Source: Hemerocallis citrina (lineage: Eukaryota; Streptophyta; Magnoliopsida; Asparagales; Asphodelaceae). Taken from it: a DNA stretch of 64,000 nt. The stretch spans positions 87,866,910-87,930,909 of the forward strand of contig CM030367.1 in assembly GCA_017893485.1 (NCBI GenBank), read 5' to 3'. Below are positions 6,592-51,565 of this stretch, piece after piece. The position numbers were made by a program, and so were the translations under genes. Numbering within the stretch: position 1 is the first letter of the stretch; the number at the start of each line of letters is the position of its first letter. The notes below the pieces were generated by a model, which searched no databases, was not told where the DNA came from, and saw only the letters and a list, made by a program, of their open reading frames with translations.

Positions 6592-9500
6592 CAGGGCCGG
6601 ATCGGAGATCCGGGTTGCCCTAGCCGAACTCATGTTTTGTTGCCTTTTAATAAAAAAAATTTAATACTAACAACAAAAGGTAAAGTAAAAGCAAATAAAA
6701 TAAATTTGCGCAAAACCAAAAAAAGCATCAAATGTACACTATGCCATGGAAACCAATTTATGCAAAAATATTTCCTGATTTAAAATAAAAATCAATCTAG
6801 GAACAGAAAATTTTGTTAACTTAAACAAAGCTATAGAACCCAAAAACTAAATCTAAAAGCATAATTTGAAGCAATTATAGAACCTCAAAACTAAATCTAC
6901 TTACCACACTGTTACATCAATGACGGTATATTCCAGAATCTTTTATATACCCATCGCGTAGTTTCTGTCAATAAAATAAACTTGTTAGTGAAAAAGAAGA
7001 AACATATAATGATAAACTTAAGCAATAATAACAGTAATTGATTAATAAATACTGTGTCTCGAACATAATACCTACTTTGGCTCCCTCATGTAAAATGTCA
7101 TCCATGAACACTAACTTGTGGAGGCCCAGATCCCTTCACAAATGACAATTCAGAAAATTAAGTTTAAGTTGAAGAACAAGATTTGTAGAAATTAATGCAT
7201 ATTAATTAAATATACTCACTTTTTCTGTGAAAATGTCCTCTTATATAGGCCAGCACAAGTGTACCGACAAATCATTCTAAAATATGTTAAGTATGTTGTA
7301 AGGACTTATCTTTATGTTTCAAGAATTTATCTTTGATAAAAACATGATTACATTGTTTTTTAAATCTTGAACTACAACATAAAGCCAAACAAAATATGAT
7401 TACATTTGCAAAATCAAAATTACATTCGGATTACAATTTGGTTCAAAGAAATATGCTCCTTCTTGCATTTCTTGAAGCAAATTCTTCAATTAAGTCATCA
7501 TACTTGAGTTTCTCCAAAAATTCATTCTCGATTGAGATCATAGCCAATCCACTCAATCTTTCTTGTGACATGGTAGTCCAAAGGTAAGTTTTTATCAACT
7601 TTAACTTAGAAAAACTCTTCTCCGCCGAGGCAACTATAACCAGTATAGTCAACAAAATTCGATAAGCAAACCATGCACTTTGGAAACCACCTTCAACCCA
7701 ATAAGATCTTATAAAGTTAAGGATGTCAATTGATTTGATCATCTCCTTTGGCAATATTTTTTTCAACTCTCTAAGATCTTGAAATAACTCTTTCCCATAA
7801 ATATCACATTGTTGGTCATGTTCCAAGAAGCTTTGTAGTTTAGTGCAATGCTCCCTCAATTTCTCTTCACTAACACTTACAAACTTTGCATTAAATAAAA
7901 ATCCAAAGATTTCTTCATTGAGCTCAGATTGTTTAAACCGATCATTTAATGATGTAAGAGCTTGATCTATGATGTAGATGAAGTATGTAACTCTAAAATT
8001 ATCCTCTGGTGAATGGCTTCCTTCGGCATTCGCTTCCATATCCTCATCAAAGTGCTTCTTTCTACGAACAATTCTTTTCATTGGAAAGACCGGATCAATG
8101 CCAACATCATTAACAAGTTCCTTCGCTTCTTTCATCAAGTCTTCAAAATCATCTTCTTTAAACTTTTCAAGAAAATAATGAGTTCCTTTTGAATAGTAAT
8201 TGCATCATCTAAATTCATCTCTTCTTGTTGAATTATTTTGCTAACACGATTAACTTTGTCTAAGATTTTATACCAAACACATAAACTAATCAAGAACTCA
8301 AAATCTTCTAAAGCATTTTTGCACAAACCTTTAGCTTCCGCCATCACAATATCCTCTTTAGAAGTATTGGCAATTTGAATTAAGGCATCTCTCAATTCCG
8401 GTGCTTGATTTCTTATTGCTCTAACACTTTCAATGTGACTTTCCCAACGAGTTACGGATAATGCTTTTGGTGTCAAACCCGTCACATATGTTCTAAGAAT
8501 ATTCCATCGATGTGTGGACCCCGAAAATAAAGTATAAATCTTTTGCACATATGCAAAAAAAAAATCTAGCTTTCACACAAGACTTTGCCATATCACATAA
8601 TGCAAGGTTTAAGCTATGGCATCCACATGTTACATAAAAATCTCTAGGATTTATGTCAAGAAGTCTCTTTTATACTCCTTGATGTTTACCTTTCATGTTT
8701 GACCCATTGTCATAACTTTGACCTCTTATATTATCAATGTCGAGTTTAAGTTCAACCAAAGTATCTTCAAGCCGTTTGAAAAGACCAAGTCCCGATGTAT
8801 CATCAACCTTTAAGAAGCCAAGAAAAAACTCATCCACCTTAACTCCACCTGCATCCTCAACATCCACGCATCTTATGATAATTGACAATTGTTCTTCATG
8901 ATTTAAATCCGGAATACAATCAAGGATAACCGAGAAGTACTTTGCTTTTAAAAAAAATTGGAGAATTTTCTCTTTGATTTCATTAGCTAATAAACTTATC
9001 TACTCATTTTGAATCTTATGACTCAAATAGTGATGTTGCATTTCTTGATCTACCACACGCCGAAGATGGTCTTGCATAACTGAATCAAATTCAGCAAGAA
9101 GCTCAATAAGTTGACAAAAAAAGTCCATTGTTCTTCTCATAAATCTTTTCATTTGATCCACGAAATGGCAAATTATTTCGAGGAAGGGCCTTCACAACCG
9201 CAATAATGCGAATGAGTACATTCTTCCAACGAATTTTCTCCTTGTCGATTTGTGCTTCCATTTTTTTTATCAATTGTTTCCTTTAGGTTTAATCTTCTTT
9301 GCAAGTCAACCCACTTCACAATATTTGCCGAATGCCCCCTATTGCTTTCATGGTCTCTAAGCTTTGTAGGAAGGTTATGCCAATCATCTATCCCATTTTC
9401 GGCCAAGTTACTTGACATTGGTTTATGCTTGAACAACTTGCAACAAAAAACAAAACACCTTATTTAACTCATTTGAATAGACAGTCCACTTCCTTTCGTT

Positions 9501-12309: not shown

Positions 12310-12332
12310 AGATACTAATGAAGTAACCCTAA

Positions 12333-13150
12333 GAGCATCCACAGCGGTTTGCTAAAATTCTCATTTTGCCATTTTTTTAGCAAACGAGCGCTGCAGTGGT
12401 TTGCTAAAATTCTCATATTTGCCATTTTTTAGCAATCGTCTCAGTTCTGTTTCTCAAATATGAGAAACGATTTGAGAATTCTCAAATTATAGAGGACGGG
12501 GAATGATTCCCCGTCTGAGAAATTTTAATATTTTTTTTTTATGAACAGACGGTATATCATATACCGTCTGTCAATTTTTATTATTTTTTTATTAGACACC
12601 GGGGTCAAACGGGATATGTTTCCCCGTCTCACACCCCTTTTTTTGTTTTTTTTTTTTTTTTAAATTAAAATCCTCCTCAAACGGGACATCATGTCCCGTT
12701 TGTCTCAAACGGGATATGATCTCCCGTTTGGGAGGATTTTAATTTTTTTGAAAAAGAACAAGTGTATTACTATAATAAGATTCCAACCAGATCATGAATT
12801 ATTAGCAAAGCCATGAGCATATTTAAGGGTCAGATCTAAGGCACAAATTTAATGGGTACAGTGTATTTAAGGGTCAGATCTAAGCCATGAGCATATTTAA
12901 GGGTCAGATCTAAGGCACAACTATAATACACTGTACCATATACACTTGTTCTTTGAAAAAAATTAACAAACGGTACATCATATACCGTCTCAGAGCTTTT
13001 TTTGAAATAAAAAAAAGAGACGAGATATCATATCCCGTCTCTCCTGTAAATGAGAAAAATATAGCAAATGACAACTGCAGCATCGGTCTCTGTTTGCTAT
13101 TACTGTTCATGCCATATTATAGCATATGAGAATCACCACTGTGGATGCTC
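12333..13150. mobile_element. TAA-flanked foldback MITE (PIF/Harbinger-like)
   Basis: The terminal inverted repeats are GAGCATCCACAG(C/T)GGT, left at 12333 and right (inverted) ending at 13150. A direct TAA lies outside each end (12330-12332 and 13151-13153). The 3-bp TAA duplication and the lack of coding capacity fit a Tourist/PIF-Harbinger type MITE. The interior is dominated by palindromes (separate entry). It also has a 25-bp-scale inverted pair, 12741-12766 against 12940-12964, and a triplicated 'atttaagggtcagatctaag' at about 12820-12915. Confidence 0.8.
12495..13042. repeat. Series of seven related palindromes inside MITE
   Basis: Odd palindromes with 10-13-bp arms and a single central base lie at 12495-12515, 12545-12571, 12607-12629 (imperfect), 12678-12702, 12706-12730, 12968-12990 and 13016-13042. 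The shared pattern is R-ACGG-n-ATAT-c-ATAT-n-CCGT-Y. Three are perfect and the others have one or two mismatches, except the poorer third. Where the arm sequence changes between units (GGGGAAT, GGTATAT, GGGACAT), the opposite arm changes to match. Units four and five are enclosed by a perfect 15-bp inverted repeat (12662-12676 and 12731-12745). Confidence 0.9.
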
Positions 13151-13341
13151 TAACAACTAGCACTGCAGTCTCCAACCTTCATTTGAAGTCATTATAACAA
13201 CGGGTAGATTAATATAATTCTCTCAACTAAAGACTACCAACCGAAAGATACCAGTTTTTGAATTCGAGATCAGCTTCCTCCTCTGTGCCAAAACTTACTA
13301 ATGGCCTACCAAAATTCGAGGAGAGAGTCTGAACTCCCTTT

Positions 13342-14324
13342 TTATAGCCCTTCCAGATTATCATTGTAAACCTTGATCACCTCAGGTAACTGATGCTGAT
13401 ACTTGATCACATATTTGTTTCCAAAATTCTTTTGACTCATTGTAAAAAAACAAGCAGACAAATTCAAGATCACCAAAGCCCCTTGATGCTAAAACATTCA
13501 CAACCGACCACCTTCGCATAACCCTCTTCTCCAAACTCAAATTCAGTATCACCGGACTTGCCGCCACACGTGACGGTTCCCACTGCAATTCCTTCACAAA
13601 GAACTCCATCACCTTCTTGATCTTCTTTACAGATACGTTCATCAACCACGGCTGTCTGATAAATGCAGTACTGATCTCCTCTTCAGACAATCCAAAACTC
13701 TTTATACATCCCCACTTTCCTCTCCCATGCTTCAGTACTTTCCTGACACATCACATTGGCACCATGAGTAAACATGGTTGACTCTGGAATAACCATCTTT
13801 AACTGGTCAGTCGGTATCATCATGGATCTCGGTTTATTTCTAACCAATTTGGCAATGTGGGCATCAGGGATCCCATAAGATTGATGGGTTCTGACATTGG
13901 GCAGGAAACTGGTTTCGAGATTGAGTTGGAGCAGTCTACTATTACGGCGAAGAGCAACGGTTATTTGTTCGACAGCAGGAATGAATGATGAGAGTATACA
14001 GAAGTTGGGTTTGAGTCGATTGTTTAATCTTGAACTGAGTACCAATGGATTAGAGCAGATAGATGATGGTGGTGAGGTCGGAGGGGGTAAAACCGACGGA
14101 AAGAAAGAAAGAAAGAAATCGAGTTTGGGTTTGAAGGTGGTGTCTTGTTTGGAAACGAGAAGGTGTGGGTACTTTGTGATCATGTTTGAGATCTGGGTCT
14201 GAGTAAAATCATAGGATTTCACGAGGGAAGTTAAGGATTCGGATGAAGGGTTATGATTAATATTGGGTTTTCTTGGGTGATCAAGTTGTAGAAGGAACGG
14301 AGAAGATGGATTGAGAATTGACAT
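13342..14324 (-). pseudogene. mTERF-family gene, frameshifted
   Basis: mTERF proteins are helical-repeat nucleic-acid-binding factors of mitochondria and chloroplasts. Read from ATG at 14324, the frame shows mTERF repeats: F-T-Q-T-Q-I-S-N-M-I-T-K-Y-P (about 14220-14180), R-L-N-N-R-L-K-P-N, I-A-K-L-V-R-N-K-P-R (about 13850), and W-E-R-K-V-G-M-Y. An extra T near 13690 shifts the frame. The protein continues as L-S-E-E-E-I-S-T-A-F and S-L-E-K-R-V (13690-13382). A second shift near 13430 moves the usual C-terminal K-Y-V-I-K-Y-Q-H-Q-L-P-E-V into another frame ending with TAA at 13342-13344. The N-terminal organelle-targeting region typical of the family is missing, and the middle is slightly short. 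It is probably a pseudogene copy, although two sequencing errors could mimic this. Confidence 0.85.
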
Positions 14325-17731: not shown

Positions 17732-20105
17732 ATGGTACAAACGAGGAGAGCAGATGCGGGAGCAGGTGCTAGGCCCCGAGTAAGTAGTATTCTTTGTTCT
17801 TTTAAATAATATATTTGTTCCTATGCTATGCAGTGTTGACTTAATATTACTGTATTTATGTAGGCTACCGACGAAGGACCTAGTAATAGTGGCTGCGGAT
17901 AGGGATGTCAATTGCGGGGTGGCCGAGGCGAGGGAACTTCTTCGTCTGCTGATACTGGCACATTACTTCGTCTACTGTTGCACCTAGAGGACCAGGTCCT
18001 GATGACCCCACCATGTTGATGTTGCAACAGACACAGATCCCAGCGGGTGTGGAATAATACATCCAGGGAGTGCAGTTTTCATATGCACGAGATGTTGCCA
18101 ATGTGCCCAATGACACACAAGCTCCTAGTCGAGGCCGATTTCTGCAGACTAGGATTGACAGGGAAGATGAAGCTCGATCGTCATCTGCTTACAAATTTTC
18201 TCGAACGAAGGAGTTCGGAGACTCATTCGTTACATCTCTTTGTGGGAGTGATGACCATGCCACTTCAGGATATTGCGGTTTTCTCAGGACTTCCAATTGA
18301 TGGGTTGGCCATCACGGGAACCATGACGTTTAATAAGGTGGTACTTGTGGTAGATATTTTTGGTGTTGAGCCAGAAGATCATACATTTGGTGGAATGTCT
18401 ATCCGACTGAGTTGGCTGAAGAATACATTTGTGAACATCTTAAACAACGATTCATCAGAGTATCAAGTCCAGTGTTACACCCTAGCCTATCTGATGACAC
18501 TATTTGGAGGTGTTATCTTCCCCGACTCGACAGGAGATGTCGTGCCTCTCATGTATTTACTGTTGATTGCTGACTTGAGTCGAGCTAGTTAGTACAGCCG
18601 GGGTAGTGTTACAATAGCCTTCTTGTACAAGAGCTTTTGTAATGGAGCATTGAATGCAAAGGACATGATAAGTCCGATGTTAATACTACAAATTTGGTGT
18701 TGGGACGACCACGTATAAGTTGGCAGTCACGGGGTGGTTGATAGATGCAGCGAATATTGCGATTTTGGCTCCCATCGGGGTGTACTGAGCCGGGGGACAC
18801 ACGTGGAGAGATAACACACGTGGGATGGTGACTTACTATAGAGATGAGCTAGGTATGTTGCGAGAGGAGTTCGTCATATGGTAACCATACACAACTGATA
18901 GATTGAAGATGCTACCACCTATTTGTACGACAAATAGTGAGCTATGGTTGACGATAGCCAACTCGTCAACTTCAGTGTCGTTAAGATGTATTATTCGACC
19001 CGAGTGCTTTGTCAGTTTAGTCTTCAGTAGTCCATCCCCGCCCCACGATCATATGACAAGTCTCCTACACAAGGTTAAAGAGTTTAGTCGTGTGCCCGAT
19101 CATAATTGGGCTTCCATCACCATGCTCATGTCAACGCGTGAAACAAGCAAAGATACGATACTATTATTGTAGGTATCCTTCATATGATGGATCACTGCAT
19201 GCCGTATACATGTCATGGTACCGAATAATTACACGTTTATATGTGGCTCCTCGTACTTCTGTGCCTGCAGGGGTTCTCCTATCAGTTCCGAGTACAGAGA
19301 CCAAACCCTGCTCCAGCCTACCTCTCTTTGCAACCCATGTATCAACCAAAGACAGCCTCCACTCGAAGAATCATATGATAATTTATCCTATATTTGTAAA
19401 TATATTGCATTTGTGTTAAAATTTTATCTCGATAATAGTGTACATGGTACGCTCTATGTTCTACTTTGTGCAGATTGACCAAGTTTGGGTGATAGCCTGG
19501 AAATGCGCACAAGTCTTGACGAGCAATGTGGCTCAAGCCACAGAGGATCTCGCACAAGAGATTCTCGCATCGTATTGTTTGCAAATTGAGATGGTGGGTG
19601 AGGTAGCACGATTCGACGCGTTGATGACAACCCCAATTCACGGAACGTCTAGATGTAAAAAGGTAGCACGGCTGTAATACCCCAGATTTCTAGATAGGTT
19701 GTGTGCATACATAGCATGCACATAAGGTGTTTGATGAAATGTCCGTGTAGGAAAAGACGATTAACAAACACTAGGCGCGTGCGGAGCTATAGCACGCTAA
19801 AAGTAGGCCTCCAAATCATGCACAAGATCGGCGGACCTAGGGCACTACAAAGGCGTCCAACACGTGGATGACAATGAGCAGAGCAACTGCGTGAAGAGCA
19901 TGCACCAGAAGAAGAGCAATTAAAAGAGGAGGTCCAAGAAGAAGACCATGCGTGACAAGAGGGTGTGGCACGGGAGGAGTCCGATCTTAATGAAAATGAA
20001 TAATATCCCGACAAAATGCTCATTTCACAGGTTACGCAAGTTGGTCAAAGGAAAGCCAATCGGAAGAGGAGGAAGCCCGACATGTACACCCCGTGGGAGG
20101 TTTAA
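17732..20105 (+). pseudogene. Plant mobile domain (PMD, MAIN-like) gene carried by MULE, broken
   Basis: PMD (PF10536) proteins exist as cellular factors (MAIN family) and as TE-encoded proteins. The start M-V-Q-T-R-R-A-D-A-G is typical of TE-type PMD proteins. It is followed by a donor GTAAGT at 17780 and an acceptor ending at 17863 (84-bp intron, exon 1 of 16 codons). The domain follows: L-V-E-A-D-F (about 18130), D-I-A-V-F-S-G-L-P-I-D-G (18270-18310), I-R-L-S-W-L-K-N-T-F (about 18400), then Y-S-R-G-S-V-T-I-A-F-L-Y-K after an in-frame TAG at 18590, and P-Y-T-T-D-R-L-K-M-L-P (18888-18920). A basic tail K-R-R-K-P-D-M-Y-T-P-W-E-V ends at 20105. Frameshifts at about 17900-18000 and after 18990 make it non-functional. 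It reads inward from the left arm, opposite the transposase. Confidence 0.82.
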
Positions 20106-29596: not shown

Positions 29597-29764
29597 AGGC
29601 GACGCTCAGTTGGTTTTCAAAAAAATAAAAAATTTAACAGAATGAGATAAGGTAAACTTGAGTATTTAAAAAAATATGTCCACTTTACTCATTGGGCCGA
29701 CTCGGCCCATTGGTTTGGGTATTGGGCTTTCTTCTTACCTTATCCCATTGGTGTGGGTTCGATC

Positions 29765-38228: not shown

Positions 38229-41200
38229 TAGGGATGGCATTCGGGTCGAACAGGCCAGGCCAGGCCGGACCCGCCCGGGTTGGATGTTGACTTGGGCGGG
38301 TTCGGGCCAGGCCAGGCTGGGTCGAAAAGTAGAACTGGCGACCCGCCCAACTCGAGAACCCTTTCGGGTCCAACCGGGTTGGTTCAGGTCGGGTCGCGGG
38401 TTGGCCCATTTAGATAGGGTTTTTTTTGTTTCTTTTTAACTTAAAAAAATAATAATAAAAATAATAAACACTAAAAATTGTAATAATAATAATAAGATTG
38501 TAAGAGTGAATTTGCCAAAAAAATTTTGAAATATTATTCATATGATTTCAAGTTATACAAGTTTCACAATTTCTAATAAGAAATAAAGAATTCACAAATT
38601 TGTTTTATACACTAACATATTTCTTATATACAATTTCAATTTACTTCAATATTTATAATTTGAAATAACAAGCAAAGATCTAATACAATTTTTTTATCTA
38701 TTTACAATTGTCTTCAAGTTAGTGGTCTTCAATTTGTTGTTGTTAACTTGTTGTTGTTCAGCTGTTGGTATTGAATTCTTCATTGTGGTTGCTATTGTTG
38801 TTGTTGTTGTTGTTTTTCCAGCGAGTTGCTCCCACTTGTGGACGTAGATAATATTTTCCCTTGTGTCCTATCTTCAGCCTTCAGCCAGTCTTCTGTGCAA
38901 ACGAGAATCTCTAACGAGTCGGGCTTCAAGCGATTCCTGTAATCAGTTAGAACCCTGCCACTTGAAGAAAATGCACTTTCAGAAGCAACTGTAGAGACAT
39001 GAGGAGTTAGTAGATCTTTAGCCATATATTTAAGAATACTATAAGTGTGTTCATGGTCTTTCCACCATTGTAAAATATCTAGTGGAGAAGTAGAAGACTC
39101 AGAATCTTGTTGATTATACCAATTTAATTCATTTGGTTGATTAGTCCTAGGTTTTTTGGATTGAATTTGTGCAAGTAAATTAAATGTTCTATCATCAAAT
39201 TTACTCTTACCCTTACCCTTACCTTTGGAACTACCAGAAGAAAAACTAACTACAGAAGTTGTACTATTAGAAGCAAAAGATCTATCATAATAATCATGCA
39301 AGTTATTTAATGTAGATTCAAATTTAACTAAAAAAGAAGCGCAATCAATTACTTGTTCTACTGCTTCGGATTCTTCCCCAAGTAATGCAAAAAATATTTC
39401 AATCAAACTCTTCGTACCTTCTAATTTGATACGAGGATCCATAACGATAGCAACACAAAACAACATAGGAGGAGGATAAAAATACTTAAAAAAAAAATTG
39501 TATGCAGGTTTTACAATATCACCAACAAAAGCATCATTTACCATTTCGTTAAAAATTTGCATCATAGTAACTATTGAAATAAAAATGCTACTAGAAGTAG
39601 ATTCATATGATTTTGAAAATTTTAAAGTTACGGTTTTAAAAGGTTCTAAAAGTCTCAAAGATTCGGCATAAAACCAATCAGTGGGAGTCATTTCAAAATT
39701 TGACATATTTTTTGCGATATAAAAATCATTTATAACTGCTTTATATTCGGTAACAACCTGTAGTAAATCAAAAGTAGAGTTCCATCGGTGTTTAACATCC
39801 TTTAGAAATCTTCTAAAAGGTACATTTGAAATCCTACACCAATTTTTCCATTCTTGAAATACGCTGGGACTTAATGCAATAAAATGTACACAATTTCTAA
39901 TTTTAAGTATATATGGATCGGCTTTTTTTAATGCATCTTGAACAAATAAATTTAAAATATGACATGCACATCTAATATGAAAAATATTGTCAGATGGAGG
40001 GTTTAATGCGGATTTTAAAGTAGTAATTGATGGATTGTTGTTAGATATATTATCAAAACTAATACACATAATTTTATCGTGAATATGAAAAATATCACAA
40101 ATTTGTAAAATACGGTTTGCTATTTCAGCGCCACTATGGGGATAGGGCAACGCGGTAAGTGATATAATTCTTTTTTGAAGAATTCAATCATTGTCGATCC
40201 AATGACAGGTTATTCCCATCATTGGAATATTGTTGACACCCGTTCAACAATCCGAAGTTAAACTAACTCTACAAGTTAAACTCCATAAAATTGCAATAAA
40301 AGCGTCCTTCATTTTATTGTACACTTTAAAACAATCCGATTTGCAAGTATTTCTCGGGATTCTTCTAAAATGAAGGTTTAAGGCCGTTTGATTAATATTT
40401 TTCAAGTCCCTACTCTCGGGATAGGAAAATGGTAACTCTTCCTTTATTACTAATCGGGCCATTTCCCGACGAACAAGATCGGGATCATAAGGGTGGCTAT
40501 CAACTAGACCAGTCCTAGGGTAGATTTTTTGTTGGCCGGGTAGGTCAGCAAGAAGGTCTTTATGGTTATTTAGGATGTGTCTACTAATTGTACCGGTACC
40601 ATCACCCCTCTTGAATTTGTATGCCTTCGAACATGTTTTACAAACTTTCAAACCTATACCCGGAGTTTCTTCGTATAGGATAAAATCGTAAAATTTATGC
40701 CAATCACTACTTTCCCTCTACTATTCCTACCACTACGGGGTTGTGTTGTTTCGGTTGGTTGTTGTTGTTGTTCTTCTTCTTCTAATTGTAAGTCTCCTAC
40801 AACCTCATCGTGTGTACCCCATTGTTGGGTAGGAGGATCATGGTACTCTTCGGTGGGCTCACTAATTGGGACAATTGGTGGCCTACGGGAAGTGTCGGTA
40901 GAATCTTGCCCACTTTGGCTATGACCGCTACCGCGTGATCTAGATATAATGTAGTAATGTATGTAAAAAAAAACTACACAATGTAGGAGAGATGAGTTAT
41001 AAAAAAAATCTAGAAAACAAGATGGTTGAGATAGAGAAGATCAAAAAACCAACAAAAATTATAACTACAACAAAAATTAAATAAGAAGAGAGGTATGAAA
41101 TTTTGATACCGTTCACTGTGGATTTGCGTGTATAAAAAAGTCCGTGAAAATAAGAATTGAAGTAGAAGTAGAAATAAGCGATTCTGAAATTGAAAAGTTG

Positions 41201-45249: not shown

Positions 45250-45985
45250 AAGCTAGAGATGCTTGATGCTCGTCGTTGACTTCGAGCAAAGCACTAGCTT
45301 TTTCACAAGCTGGCGGGGCTCGACACTCGGCACTAACTTCGAGCAAAGTCCTAGCTTTCTCACAAGCGGGAGATGCTCGACCCTCGCCGTTGACTTCAAG
45401 CAAAGCAATAGTTTTCTCACAAGCTGGTGGGGCTCAACGCTCGGTACTGACCTCGAGCAAAGTCCTAGCTTTCTCACAAGCTGGAGATGCTCGACACTCG
45501 CCGTTGACTTCATGCAAAGCACTAGCTTTCTCACAAGTTGGTGGGGCTCGACGCTCGACACTGACCTCGAGCAAGGGCCTAACTTTCTCACAAGTAGGAG
45601 AGGCTCGACGCTCTGCACTGACCTCGAGAAAAGCACTAGCTTTATCACAAGCTAGTGGGGCTCGACGCTCGGCCCAGACCTCGAGAAAAGTCCTAGCTTT
45701 CTCACAAGCTGGAGATGCTCCACGCTCGCTGTTGACTTCGAGCAAAGACCTAGGTTTCTCACAAGCTGGACAGGCTCGAAACACGGCACTGACCTCTAGC
45801 AAAGACCTAGCTTTCTCACAAGCCGGGCAGGCTCGACGCTTGGTAGAGACTTCGTGCAAAGGCCTAGCTTTCTTACAAGCTGGAGATGCTCGACGATCGC
45901 CACTAACTTTGAGCCAGACACTAGCTTTCTCTCAAGCTGGAGATGCTCGATGCTCGACAGTTACTTCGAGCAAAGTCCAAATTTT
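45250..45985. repeat. 57-bp minisatellite, array 1 (about 13 units)
   Basis: The core 'ctagctttctcacaagctgg' recurs with a period of exactly 57 bp in the units measured (45295, 45352, 45409, 45466). Because 57 is 19 codons, each frame repeats a 19-residue motif and several frames stay open on both strands, including a 300-codon frame at 45276-46175. It alternates two subtypes: '..ggggctcgacgctcgg' and '..gatgctcgacactcgcc'. Confidence 0.95.
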
Positions 45986-46440
45986 CTCGACCCTCAGCTC
46001 GGTTCCTGAGTCAAACGGGGCTTCTCAGCCCTACGTCCTCGCTACTCGGCGGGGACTACGAGCGATAAATGGGAGATTTCTCAATCTTCCAAGTCCTCGA
46101 CCCTCGGCTTGGTTCCTGTGTCAAATGGGGCTTCTCAGCGCCACATCCTCGCTACTCGGCGGGGACTACGGGTGAGAAACGAGAGATTCCTCAATCTCCC
46201 AAGTTCTCGACCCTCGGCTCGGTTCCTGAGTAAAATGGGGCTTCTCAGCCCCACGTCCTCGTTACTCAGTGGGGACTACGAGCGACAAACGGGAGATTTC
46301 TCAATCTCCCAAGTCCTCGACCCTCGGATCAGTTCCTGAGTCAAACGGGATTTCTCAGCCCCACGTCCTCGCTACTCGGCGGGGACTACGAGCGAAAGAC
46401 GAGAGATTTCTTGATCTCTCGCCCTCTCCCAAGTCCTCAA
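45986..46440. repeat. 110-bp tandem repeat (four units)
   Basis: 'ctcgaccctcgg' starts at 45986, 46096, 46206 and 46316, an exact 110-bp period. Each unit includes 'tcctgagtcaaacggggctt' and 'ctactcggcggggactacga'. It abuts array 1 directly. A partial 57-bp-type unit follows at 46440-46530. Confidence 0.95.
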
Positions 46441-49340: not shown

Positions 49341-49920
49341 GAGGACCCCTCAAAGGAGGCAATGTCACCAAAAGCGGAAGAGTGGGGCCAACTTCCACAG
49401 CATCGTCCCTACTATCCCCATGAAGGGCACTCTCAGCTCATTCATCCACTATGCCTTCCTCGACTTCCTCATCCGCTACCTCCACCTCATCATCAGAATA
49501 GCTCGACTCCACCACAAACTGCATGCGACTGTAGAGCAGTGCTACGTCATAAACCTTTTCACTCGTATCCTAGGATGTGGAGGCTAAAAGGCGACCCTCA
49601 TCATCCCGACTAGAGGCCCTCGCTACAGAACTAGACTGAGACCGCAACATAACAATAAAAATACTAACCTGGTTTTCATCAACTTAATGGTTCACCAGAA
49701 AGGCATCGCCGGCCAATAGAGAGAGAAGCTCCAAGGGTCAGAGAAATAAAGTAAAGTGAAGAAATGAGAAGGGGTTGAGGGATTTATAGAAAAGCTATTG
49801 ATGCCTCGAATTCCTCAAAAAGATCCCAAACCTTCCAAACTTGATCATCAAAATCTAACGGTTGATAAGATTCTGACGCCTTGATTCCCCCCTTGACGTC
49901 AGCACCACACATGCAATACA
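49341..49920. other. gypsy 3' region, no domain recognised
   Basis: GC-rich. It may hold the promoter and first exon of the antisense gene. Open frames on plus (49205-49613) overlap each other and carry no known motif. Confidence 0.4.
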
Positions 49921-51565
49921 CGTGTCCCCCACAAGCTTGGCAGGCTTGATGCTCGGTAGTGACTTCGAGCAAAGGCCTAGCTTTCTCACAAGCTGGAGAG
50001 GCTCGATGCTTGTCGTTGACTTCAAGCAAAGACCTAGCTTTCTCACAAGCTGGGCAGGCTCGATGCTCGGTAGTGGCTTCGAGCAAAGGCATAGCTTTCT
50101 CACAAGCTGGAGAGACTCGACGGTCGGCACTGACCTCGAGCAAAGCACTAGCTCTCTAAGCTGGAAATGCTCAATGCTCATCGTTGACTTCGAGCAAAGT
50201 CTTAGCTTTCCCATAAGCTGGAGAGGCTCGACGCTCGGCACATATCTCGAGCAAAGCACTAGCTTTCTCACAAGTTGGAGATGCTCGACGCTCGCCATTG
50301 ACTTCAAGCAAAGTCCTAGCTTTCGCACAAGCTGGGAAGGCTCGACACTCGGTATTGACTTCGAGCAAAGACCTAGCTTTCTCACAAGCTGGACAGGCTC
50401 GACACTCGGTATTGACTTCGAGCAAAGCACTAGCTTTCTCACAAGCTGGTGGGGCTCGACGCTCGGCACTAACCTCGAGCAAAGGCCTAGCTTTCTCTCA
50501 AGCTGAAGATGCTCAACTCTTGGCACTGACCTCGAGCAAAGTACTAGATTTCTCACAAGCTGGAGAGGCTCGACGCTCGGCACTGACCTTGAGCAAAGTA
50601 CTAGCTTTCTAACAAGCTGGTGGGGCTCGATGCTCTCCATTAACCTTGAGCAAATTCCTAGCTTTCTTATAAGCCGGAGATGCTCGACGCTAGACAGTTA
50701 CATCTCGACACTCGGCACTGACCTCGTGCAAAGTCCTAGCTTTCTCCCAAGCTGGTGGGGCTCGACGCTCACCATTGACTTCGAGCAAAGGCCTAGCTTT
50801 CTCGCAAGGCTGAAAGGGCTCGACGCTCGATGCTCGACATAAACTTCAAGCAAAGTCCTAGCTTTCTCACAAGCTGAAGGGGCTCACGCTCGACGCTCGA
50901 AGCTTGGCATAGACCTCGAGCAAAGTCCTAGCTTTCTCACAAGGCTGAAGGGGCTCGACGCTCGACAGTTACATCTCAACGCTCGGTGCTGACCTCGAGC
51001 AAAGTCCTAGCTTTCTCACAAGCTAGTAGGGCTAGACGCTCGCCATTGACTTCAAGCAAAGTCCTAGCTTTTTCACAAGGCTGAAGGGGCTCGACGCTTG
51101 ATGCTCGACGCACAGCATAAACTTCAAGCAAAGTCCTAGCTTTCTCACAGACTAAAGGGGTTCGATGCTCGACGCTCAATGCTCGACGCTCGGCATAGAC
51201 TTCGCGTAAAGTCCTAGCTTTCTCGCAAGGCTGAAGGGGCTCGACGCTCGACGCTCGGCACTGACCTCATGTAAAGTCCTAGCTTTCTCACAAGCTGGTG
51301 GGGCTCGACGCTCGCCATTGACTTTGAGCAAAGGCCTAGCTTTCTCGCAAGGCTGAAGGGGCTCGACGCTCAGCATAGACTTCGAGAAAAGTCCTAGCTT
51401 TCTCACAAGCTGAAGGGGCTCAATGCTTGACGCTCAGCATAGACTTCGAGCAAAGTCCTAGCTTTCTCACAAGCTGAAGGGGCTCGACGCTAGATGCTTA
51501 GCATAGACTTCAAGAAAAGTCCTAGCTTTCTCGCAAGACTGAAGGGGCTCGACACTCGATGCTCG
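49921..51565. repeat. 57-bp minisatellite, array 2 (about 28 units)
   Basis: Same family as array 1 ('cctagctttctcacaagctgg' core), lying on the other side of the antisense gene. The first half is regular. From about 50800 the units gain insertions of 'gaaggggctcgacgctcgatgctcgac' that lengthen the spacing, with local higher-order repetition of CTCGACG. Frames stay open on both strands for hundreds of bases. Confidence 0.95.

Follow-up and report, generated by a model that had tools for sequence, protein, structure and literature searches.

How can a series of related palindromes drift apart in sequence and still keep the two arms of each one alike? The question is raised by a small transposable element in a plant, for which a first-pass annotation had described seven related odd palindromes whose arm sequences differ from unit to unit, the partner arm changing along with them. 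We have analysed the element within its window, by which we mean the whole 64-kb stretch of DNA under study, delimiting the element, comparing the arms of its palindromes within and between units, and weighing the processes by which the symmetry could have been kept.

Boundaries and class of the element

The element spans 818 bp (12333–13150), nested insertion included. The interval 12495..13042 given by the first-pass annotation does hold all seven palindromes, which lie at 12495–13039, but the element itself is wider. Its termini read GAGCATCCACAGCGG and CCACTGTGGATGCTC, with the consensus end GAGCATCCACAG(C/T)GG; the features are collected in Table 1. When the pair of TIRs was scored it came out at 17 nt and 94%, a figure into which one base of the TAA duplication has been counted. 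The 45-bp subterminal repeat represents a doubling on the left side of the element. Among the 27 ORFs listed for the window, none of at least 130 aa falls within the element. It is short and non-coding, with TIRs and target-site duplications, the combination by which a MITE is recognised, and its designation as a MITE is supported by this structure.

Table 1. Features of the element and of its immediate borders, in window coordinates
Feature	Position	Strand	Detail
Left target-site duplication	12330..12332		TAA
Left TIR	12333..12348	+	16 bp, one mismatch against right TIR
Subterminal direct repeat, 45 bp	12342..12438	+	two copies, 12342–12386 and 12394–12438, 84% identical
U1	12495..12515		perfect odd palindrome, 10-bp arms, centre G
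U2	12545..12571		perfect odd palindrome, 13-bp arms, centre C
U3	12608..12628		degraded or chimeric, 4/10 pairs mismatched, centre G
Inverted repeat around U4 and U5, left arm	12662..12676	+	perfect, 15 bp
U4	12678..12702		perfect odd palindrome, 12-bp arms, centre C
U5	12706..12730		12-bp arms with one mismatched pair, centre G
Inverted repeat around U4 and U5, right arm	12731..12745	-	perfect, 15 bp
9-bp duplication, left copy	12747..12755		TTTGAAAAA
Nested insertion, 196 bp	12756..12951		perfect 12-bp ends GAACAAGTGTAT / ATACACTTGTTC
9-bp duplication, right copy	12952..12960		TTTGAAAAA
U6	12969..12989		2/10 pairs mismatched, centre C
U7	13019..13039		1/10 pairs mismatched, centre C
Right TIR	13135..13150	-	
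Right target-site duplication	13151..13153		TAA

Because it combines TAA duplications with short TIRs, the element is, judged by its structure, a Tourist-like (PIF/Harbinger-type) MITE. The hallmarks of PIF/Harbinger elements are a 3-bp duplication of TAA or TTA and a TIR of ∼14–50 bp (PMC10741241), and mPing, too, duplicates TAA (PMC4561436). The element has TAA on both sides and a TIR of 16 bp with one mismatch. The motif G(N)5GTT, which defines PIF-like elements of Medicago (PMC2213677), is missing at the start of the TIR, which opens GAGCATCCA, and the element is therefore not placed in the PIF subgroup. Compared by eye with the mPing end GGCCAGTCACAATGG (PMC2836001), the TIR is alike at 10 of 15 positions, a closer resemblance than to the PIF motif. 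Its 11-base start, GAGCATCCACA, occurs in 12 papers, including one on mPing (PMC3480845); the full 15-base TIRs matched none of the papers searched. mPing and the Tourist-like elements share with this MITE the 3-bp TAA duplication and the short TIR, but they differ from it in that it carries an internal array of covarying palindromes. Coral MITEs (PMC2872659) were considered as a counterpart and are not similar. No Harbinger-type domain was detected in the nine ORFs scanned among the 27 listed for the window. The MITE is degenerate and apparently dead.

Further copies of the MITE were found in the 64-kb window neither by the pattern of the palindromic unit nor by that of the TIR; a TIR-pattern match with three mismatches, at 29764, is within chance. 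In two contig collections, both of them viral or prokaryotic and uninformative on plant copies, the unit pattern matched 56 stretches of viral contigs, each with a single palindromic site and judged to be chance, the TIR pattern matched no viral contig, and a looser TIR pattern matched six contigs with bacterial titles, which were likewise put down to chance.

The 205 bp between U5 and U6 consist of a 196-bp insertion and one copy of its 9-bp duplication. The insertion holds three copies of a 46-nt repeat containing GGGTCAGATCTAAG. The target duplication of Mutator-like elements (MULEs) is 7–12 bp long (PMC10741241), a range that includes the perfect 9-bp duplication seen here, by which the nested insertion is probably a MULE-type MITE. 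It is probably younger than the MITE that hosts it.

The seven units and the agreement of their arms

The units, U1 to U7, are 21-bp odd quasi-palindromes that share sequence and architecture, each centred on a single C (four units) or G (three units) and never on A or T; the centres lie at 12505, 12558, 12618, 12690, 12718, 12979 and 13029. When up to three mismatches were allowed, the unit pattern had seven matches in 64 kb, all of them at 12495–13039, as compared with a mean of 0.08 matches in 100 shuffles, none of which reached seven. That there are seven related odd palindromes here, and no others like them in the window, is confirmed by this search. The arm length of 10–13 bp ascribed to them applies to the only three perfect units, U1 (10 bp), U2 (13 bp) and U4 (12 bp); the other four contain mismatched pairs, of which there are, within the inner 10 pairs, one each in U5 and U7, two in U6 and four in U3. 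The arm variants GGGGAAT (U1), GGTATAT (U2) and GGGACAT (U4) are indeed each matched by the partner arm. Arm columns −9 to −7 and −2 are invariant in all arms. Exchange between units has probably occurred as well, because the left 10 bp of U3 are identical to the left arm of U5, and its right arm is like that of U1 at 9 of 10 positions.

The window contains four further odd palindromes, with perfect 8-bp arms, which by eye look unrelated to the units. An even palindrome, ATTTGAGAATTCTCAAAT, with 9-bp arms (12470–12487), lies within the MITE and is unrelated to the seven.

If each unit is taken to extend 12 bp to either side of its centre, the spacers between units measure 28, 35, 47, 3, 236 and 25 bp, and the first three linkers are 51–60% T. 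The perfect inverted repeat reported to wrap U4 and U5 is present, and the same two units also form a direct 28-bp tandem repeat with 88% matches (Tandem Repeats Finder). U2 with its flank resembles U6 in inverted (33 nt, 88%) and in direct orientation (42 nt, 79%). Unit repeats within the element are both direct and inverted, and the orientation of a given unit is hard to tell because each is nearly its own reverse complement.

With the nested insertion excluded, the left half of the element and the reverse-complemented right half aligned locally with a score of 115.6, part of which comes from the palindromes themselves; the highest score among 300 mononucleotide shuffles was 39.0. The alignment pairs U2 with U7, U3 with U6 and U4 with U5, and leaves the TIRs outside. 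An interpretation as an old large inverted repeat is weakened by the fact that such units align either way round, the best alignment pairing U2 with U7 and U3 with U6, and by the direct 28-bp repeat of U4 and U5. Long-range pairing across the whole element was ranked lower as a source of the symmetry, since agreement is lower between mirror units than between own arms: with U1–U7, U2–U6 and U4–U5 paired, own arms matched at 56 of 60 positions and mirror arms at 51, and with U2–U7, U3–U6 and U4–U5 paired, as in the alignment, the figures were 52 and 48 of 60 (sums made by hand).

Own arms matched at 62 of 70 positions, as against a mean of 54.3 when arms were re-paired among units, and only 16 of the 5040 permutations matched or beat the observed value. 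With 12-bp arms, own-arm matches numbered 72 of 84, and 44 of 5040 permutations were as good. The earlier statement that symmetry is kept is upheld to the extent that partner arms agree beyond what re-pairing gives; it is too strong in that 8 of 70 arm pairs mismatch, with U3 the worst. Mismatch between own arms (0.114; 8/70) was lower than that between left arms (0.229) or right arms (0.252) of different units, that is, the two arms of a unit are more alike than the corresponding arms of related units. If a palindrome had come first and its arms had then mutated independently, own arms would be at least as different as the units; the reverse was observed.

Consistent with the claim that independent mutation would break the symmetry, at least seven paired cells were reached in a fraction of only 0.0003 (0.03%) of 20,000 simulations of independent mutation on random unit trees. 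In the same runs, five distinct paired changes were reached in a fraction of 0.0002 and the observed difference between own-arm and cross-unit mismatch in 0.0001; cross-unit mismatch was set to 0.24 in these simulations, and 0.223 was obtained. On a star tree, none of 20,000 runs gave seven paired cells, and eight or fewer own-arm mismatches arose in 0.6%.

A covariation table of 12 pairs in seven units (84 cells) was compared with 500 shuffles, which ignore the relatedness of the units. Paired cells made up 86.9%, as compared with 79.5% in shuffles (1/500 as extreme); eight cells were changed on both sides, compared with 3.1 (0/500), and five pairs showed change on both sides, compared with 2.6 (8/500). 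The covariation score was 0.254 against 0.123 (0/500), and it fell to between 0.014 and 0.182 when the partner was slid by one to three columns. The number of further pair types, seven against 5.6, was not unusual (101/500).

Five paired changes are involved: in U1 at −4 and at −3, in U2 and U6 at −5, in U4 at −3, and in U4 and U5 at −10; the two in U1 are adjacent. When any one unit was left out, between 2 and 16 of 720 permutations were as good as the observed pairing. When U1 and U2 were both dropped, own-arm mismatch was 0.160, near the left–left value (0.180) and below the right–right value (0.270), and 4 of 120 permutations were as good. Within this single copy the covariation and the symmetry are real, though their depth is modest: some five paired changes carry the signal, which is weaker without U1 and U2.

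Re-copying of arms as a candidate explanation

We favour, with a probability of about 55%, a history in which duplicated palindromes had their arms re-copied from each other by replication template switching, within a degenerate, non-coding Tourist-like MITE. A palindromic unit would have multiplied in the body of the MITE, in direct and partly inverted order and with T-rich linkers between the copies. After the units had separated, one arm would occasionally have been copied afresh from the other arm of the same unit through short-range template switching during replication. Such conversion of a quasi-palindrome to a palindrome would leave several substitutions present in both arms, and unpaired differences would mark units that escaped correction, or that, like U3 and U6, may have been damaged by subsequent mutation or unit-to-unit exchange. 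The boundaries of the element, its duplications, the relationship of its units and the paired changes in excess of independent mutation are observed here; the replication mechanism, correction within the element's own lineage and the death of the element are inferred, and so is the plant host, the last on the strength of the element type and of a plant mobile domain in the window.

The adjacent paired changes in U1 are of the multi-base kind that is enriched in ribosomal RNA (PMC8794818). Several findings count against correction: a single copy carries the evidence, 8 of the 70 arm pairs do not match, about five distinct paired changes make up a signal that is weaker without U1 and U2, and the number of further pair types is ordinary. 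The comparison, moreover, is between paralogous units of one element. The split of the centre bases between C and G is also expected from inverted duplication; flipping of a hairpin core would give the same, but paired changes combined with loop inversion are extremely rare in ribosomal RNA (PMC8794818).

No local correction would be needed if the units had been assembled from palindrome variants that already existed, supplied by other members of a palindromic-repeat or MITE family through insertion, recombination or unit exchange, the symmetry being inherited ready-made. U3, with its U5-like left arm and U1-like right arm, does resemble a chimera, and the element contains duplications in both orientations. 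Nevertheless, such assembly merely relocates the paired changes, because the source variants would still be related by paired differences, and the unit pattern finds no extra copy in the window; we consider this origin unlikely. Somewhat more doubtful still is selection for a hairpin, whereby a transcript or single strand must fold and a mutation in one arm is followed by a compensating mutation in the other. The region 12332–13151 folds as RNA with a z of −13.7 (20 shuffles), and the seven units as DNA hairpins have z values of −2.35 to −7.39 and energies of −4.1 to −11.5 kcal/mol. However, sequence rich in inverted repeats folds well whatever maintains the repeats, and the units are uneven: U3 and U6 form weak hairpins (−4.1 and −4.3 kcal/mol), while shuffles folded as well in 6/200 cases for U3, 3/200 for U7 and 1/200 for U5. 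G–U intermediates, moreover, are rare (1 of 84 cells), and the element is interrupted by the nested insertion. No Rfam family reached its gathering score in the window, a result that would say nothing for or against a hairpin of an unknown kind.

Units kept symmetric by selection because a dimeric protein binds them, for instance a transposase or its Myb-like partner, could present seven spaced copies with columns −9 to −7 and −2 invariant in every arm, as is seen here. Yet selection fixes the bases that are contacted and does not predict joint change at the free columns −5, −4 and −3; and the nine ORFs scanned, of the 27 listed, held no Harbinger-type domain. Among the mechanisms offered by the first-pass annotation, arm-to-arm correction fits best, whereas a dimeric site fits poorly because the covarying columns, −5, −4 and −3, are variable positions and not the fixed CG/A; we regard such sites as very unlikely and, like hairpin selection, less likely than template switching. 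Slightly less likely again is that the pattern reflects ascertainment or chance, palindromes having been chosen for their symmetry and a few events over-read. The small number of distinct paired changes, about five, and the weakening of the signal when U1 and U2 are dropped are compatible with this. However, the permutation result survives the omission of each unit, and no hidden, non-symmetric half-sites were found in the element: all six ACGG and all seven CCGT words fall within units, and only three of the 19 matches in a loose scan lie outside them, each with the maximum of three mismatches; at that tolerance, 607 matches occur in the remainder of the window.

Template switching of the kind we favour is documented elsewhere. 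In yeast rad27 strains, the conversion of quasi-palindromes to palindromes by template switching has been demonstrated directly, in 10 events; of the 502 Saccharomyces genes in which palindromes take two or more perfect forms, 431 exceed a simulation without switching, and orthologous loci carry perfect palindromes of different sequence (PMC5677150). In reconstructed histories of ribosomal RNA, multi-base paired changes and loop inversions are enriched, single paired changes are not, and paired changes combined with loop inversion are extremely rare and unenriched; for the maintenance of short stems, the evidence is there termed circumstantial (PMC8794818). As in the MITE, symmetry in these cases is kept while sequence differs, and multi-base paired changes occur, but they compare strains, orthologs or dated branches, whereas the MITE offers paralogous units only (PMC5677150; PMC8794818).

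Sponge mitochondria contain two related types of hairpin element with ‘few complementary substitutions’, often in tandem (PMC2800124). Like the units of the MITE, these are related hairpins that differ by complementary substitutions; unlike them, they are mitochondrial and dispersed between genes, rather than gathered within one MITE. In mitochondrial inverted repeats of Nematomorpha, two individuals show a matching pair of substitutions by which the arms stay identical, and template switching is proposed by the authors as one mechanism (PMC6649704); these repeats are long, up to 284 bp, and lie in protein-coding mitochondrial genes, in contrast to the short units of the MITE. Among the literature matches listed, in several cases the best 10–15 papers, there was no MITE whose internal palindromes covary. 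The process is already known, and what differs is its setting, here a single plant MITE with seven paralogous units. We believe it likely that a published replication process has acted in an ordinary type of plant MITE.

The question of how inverted repeats keep their symmetry when selection does not act concerns hairpin-forming elements and, by extension, the plant microRNA genes born from MITEs. It is a tentative thought, which we hold to be possible rather than probable, that a plant MITE family could serve as a natural recorder of arm-to-arm correction, MITEs of this type being grown and kept in hairpin form by replication errors and not by selection. A single copy is a hint only, of a mechanism that has itself been published. 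If the idea were right, seven paralogous palindromes per element would yield a per-unit rate of template-switch correction across copies, in nuclear DNA that is neutral. Should the same paired changes turn up in other copies, these would supply many replicate palindromes for measuring how frequently arms are re-copied.

Surroundings of the element

Some 530 bp from the MITE lies a reading frame of 213 aa with an mTERF domain (13683–14324, minus strand), which matches positions 3–156 of the 314 in the Pfam profile with an E of 8.5e-10. No relative of this frame was found at E ≤0.001 among 109 candidates, and it is perhaps a gene fragment. Dimerisation domains of hAT transposases occur in two reading frames of the window, 7443–8138 and 38792–40150, both on the minus strand, and a plant mobile domain (PF10536, E 1.1e-21) occurs in a third, on the plus strand at 18047–18592. 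At 45253–46175 and 49855–50640, both strands are open and specify a short recurrent peptide, as from a tandem-like DNA repeat; an example from the plus strand of 45253–46175 is TSSKALAFSQAGGAR.
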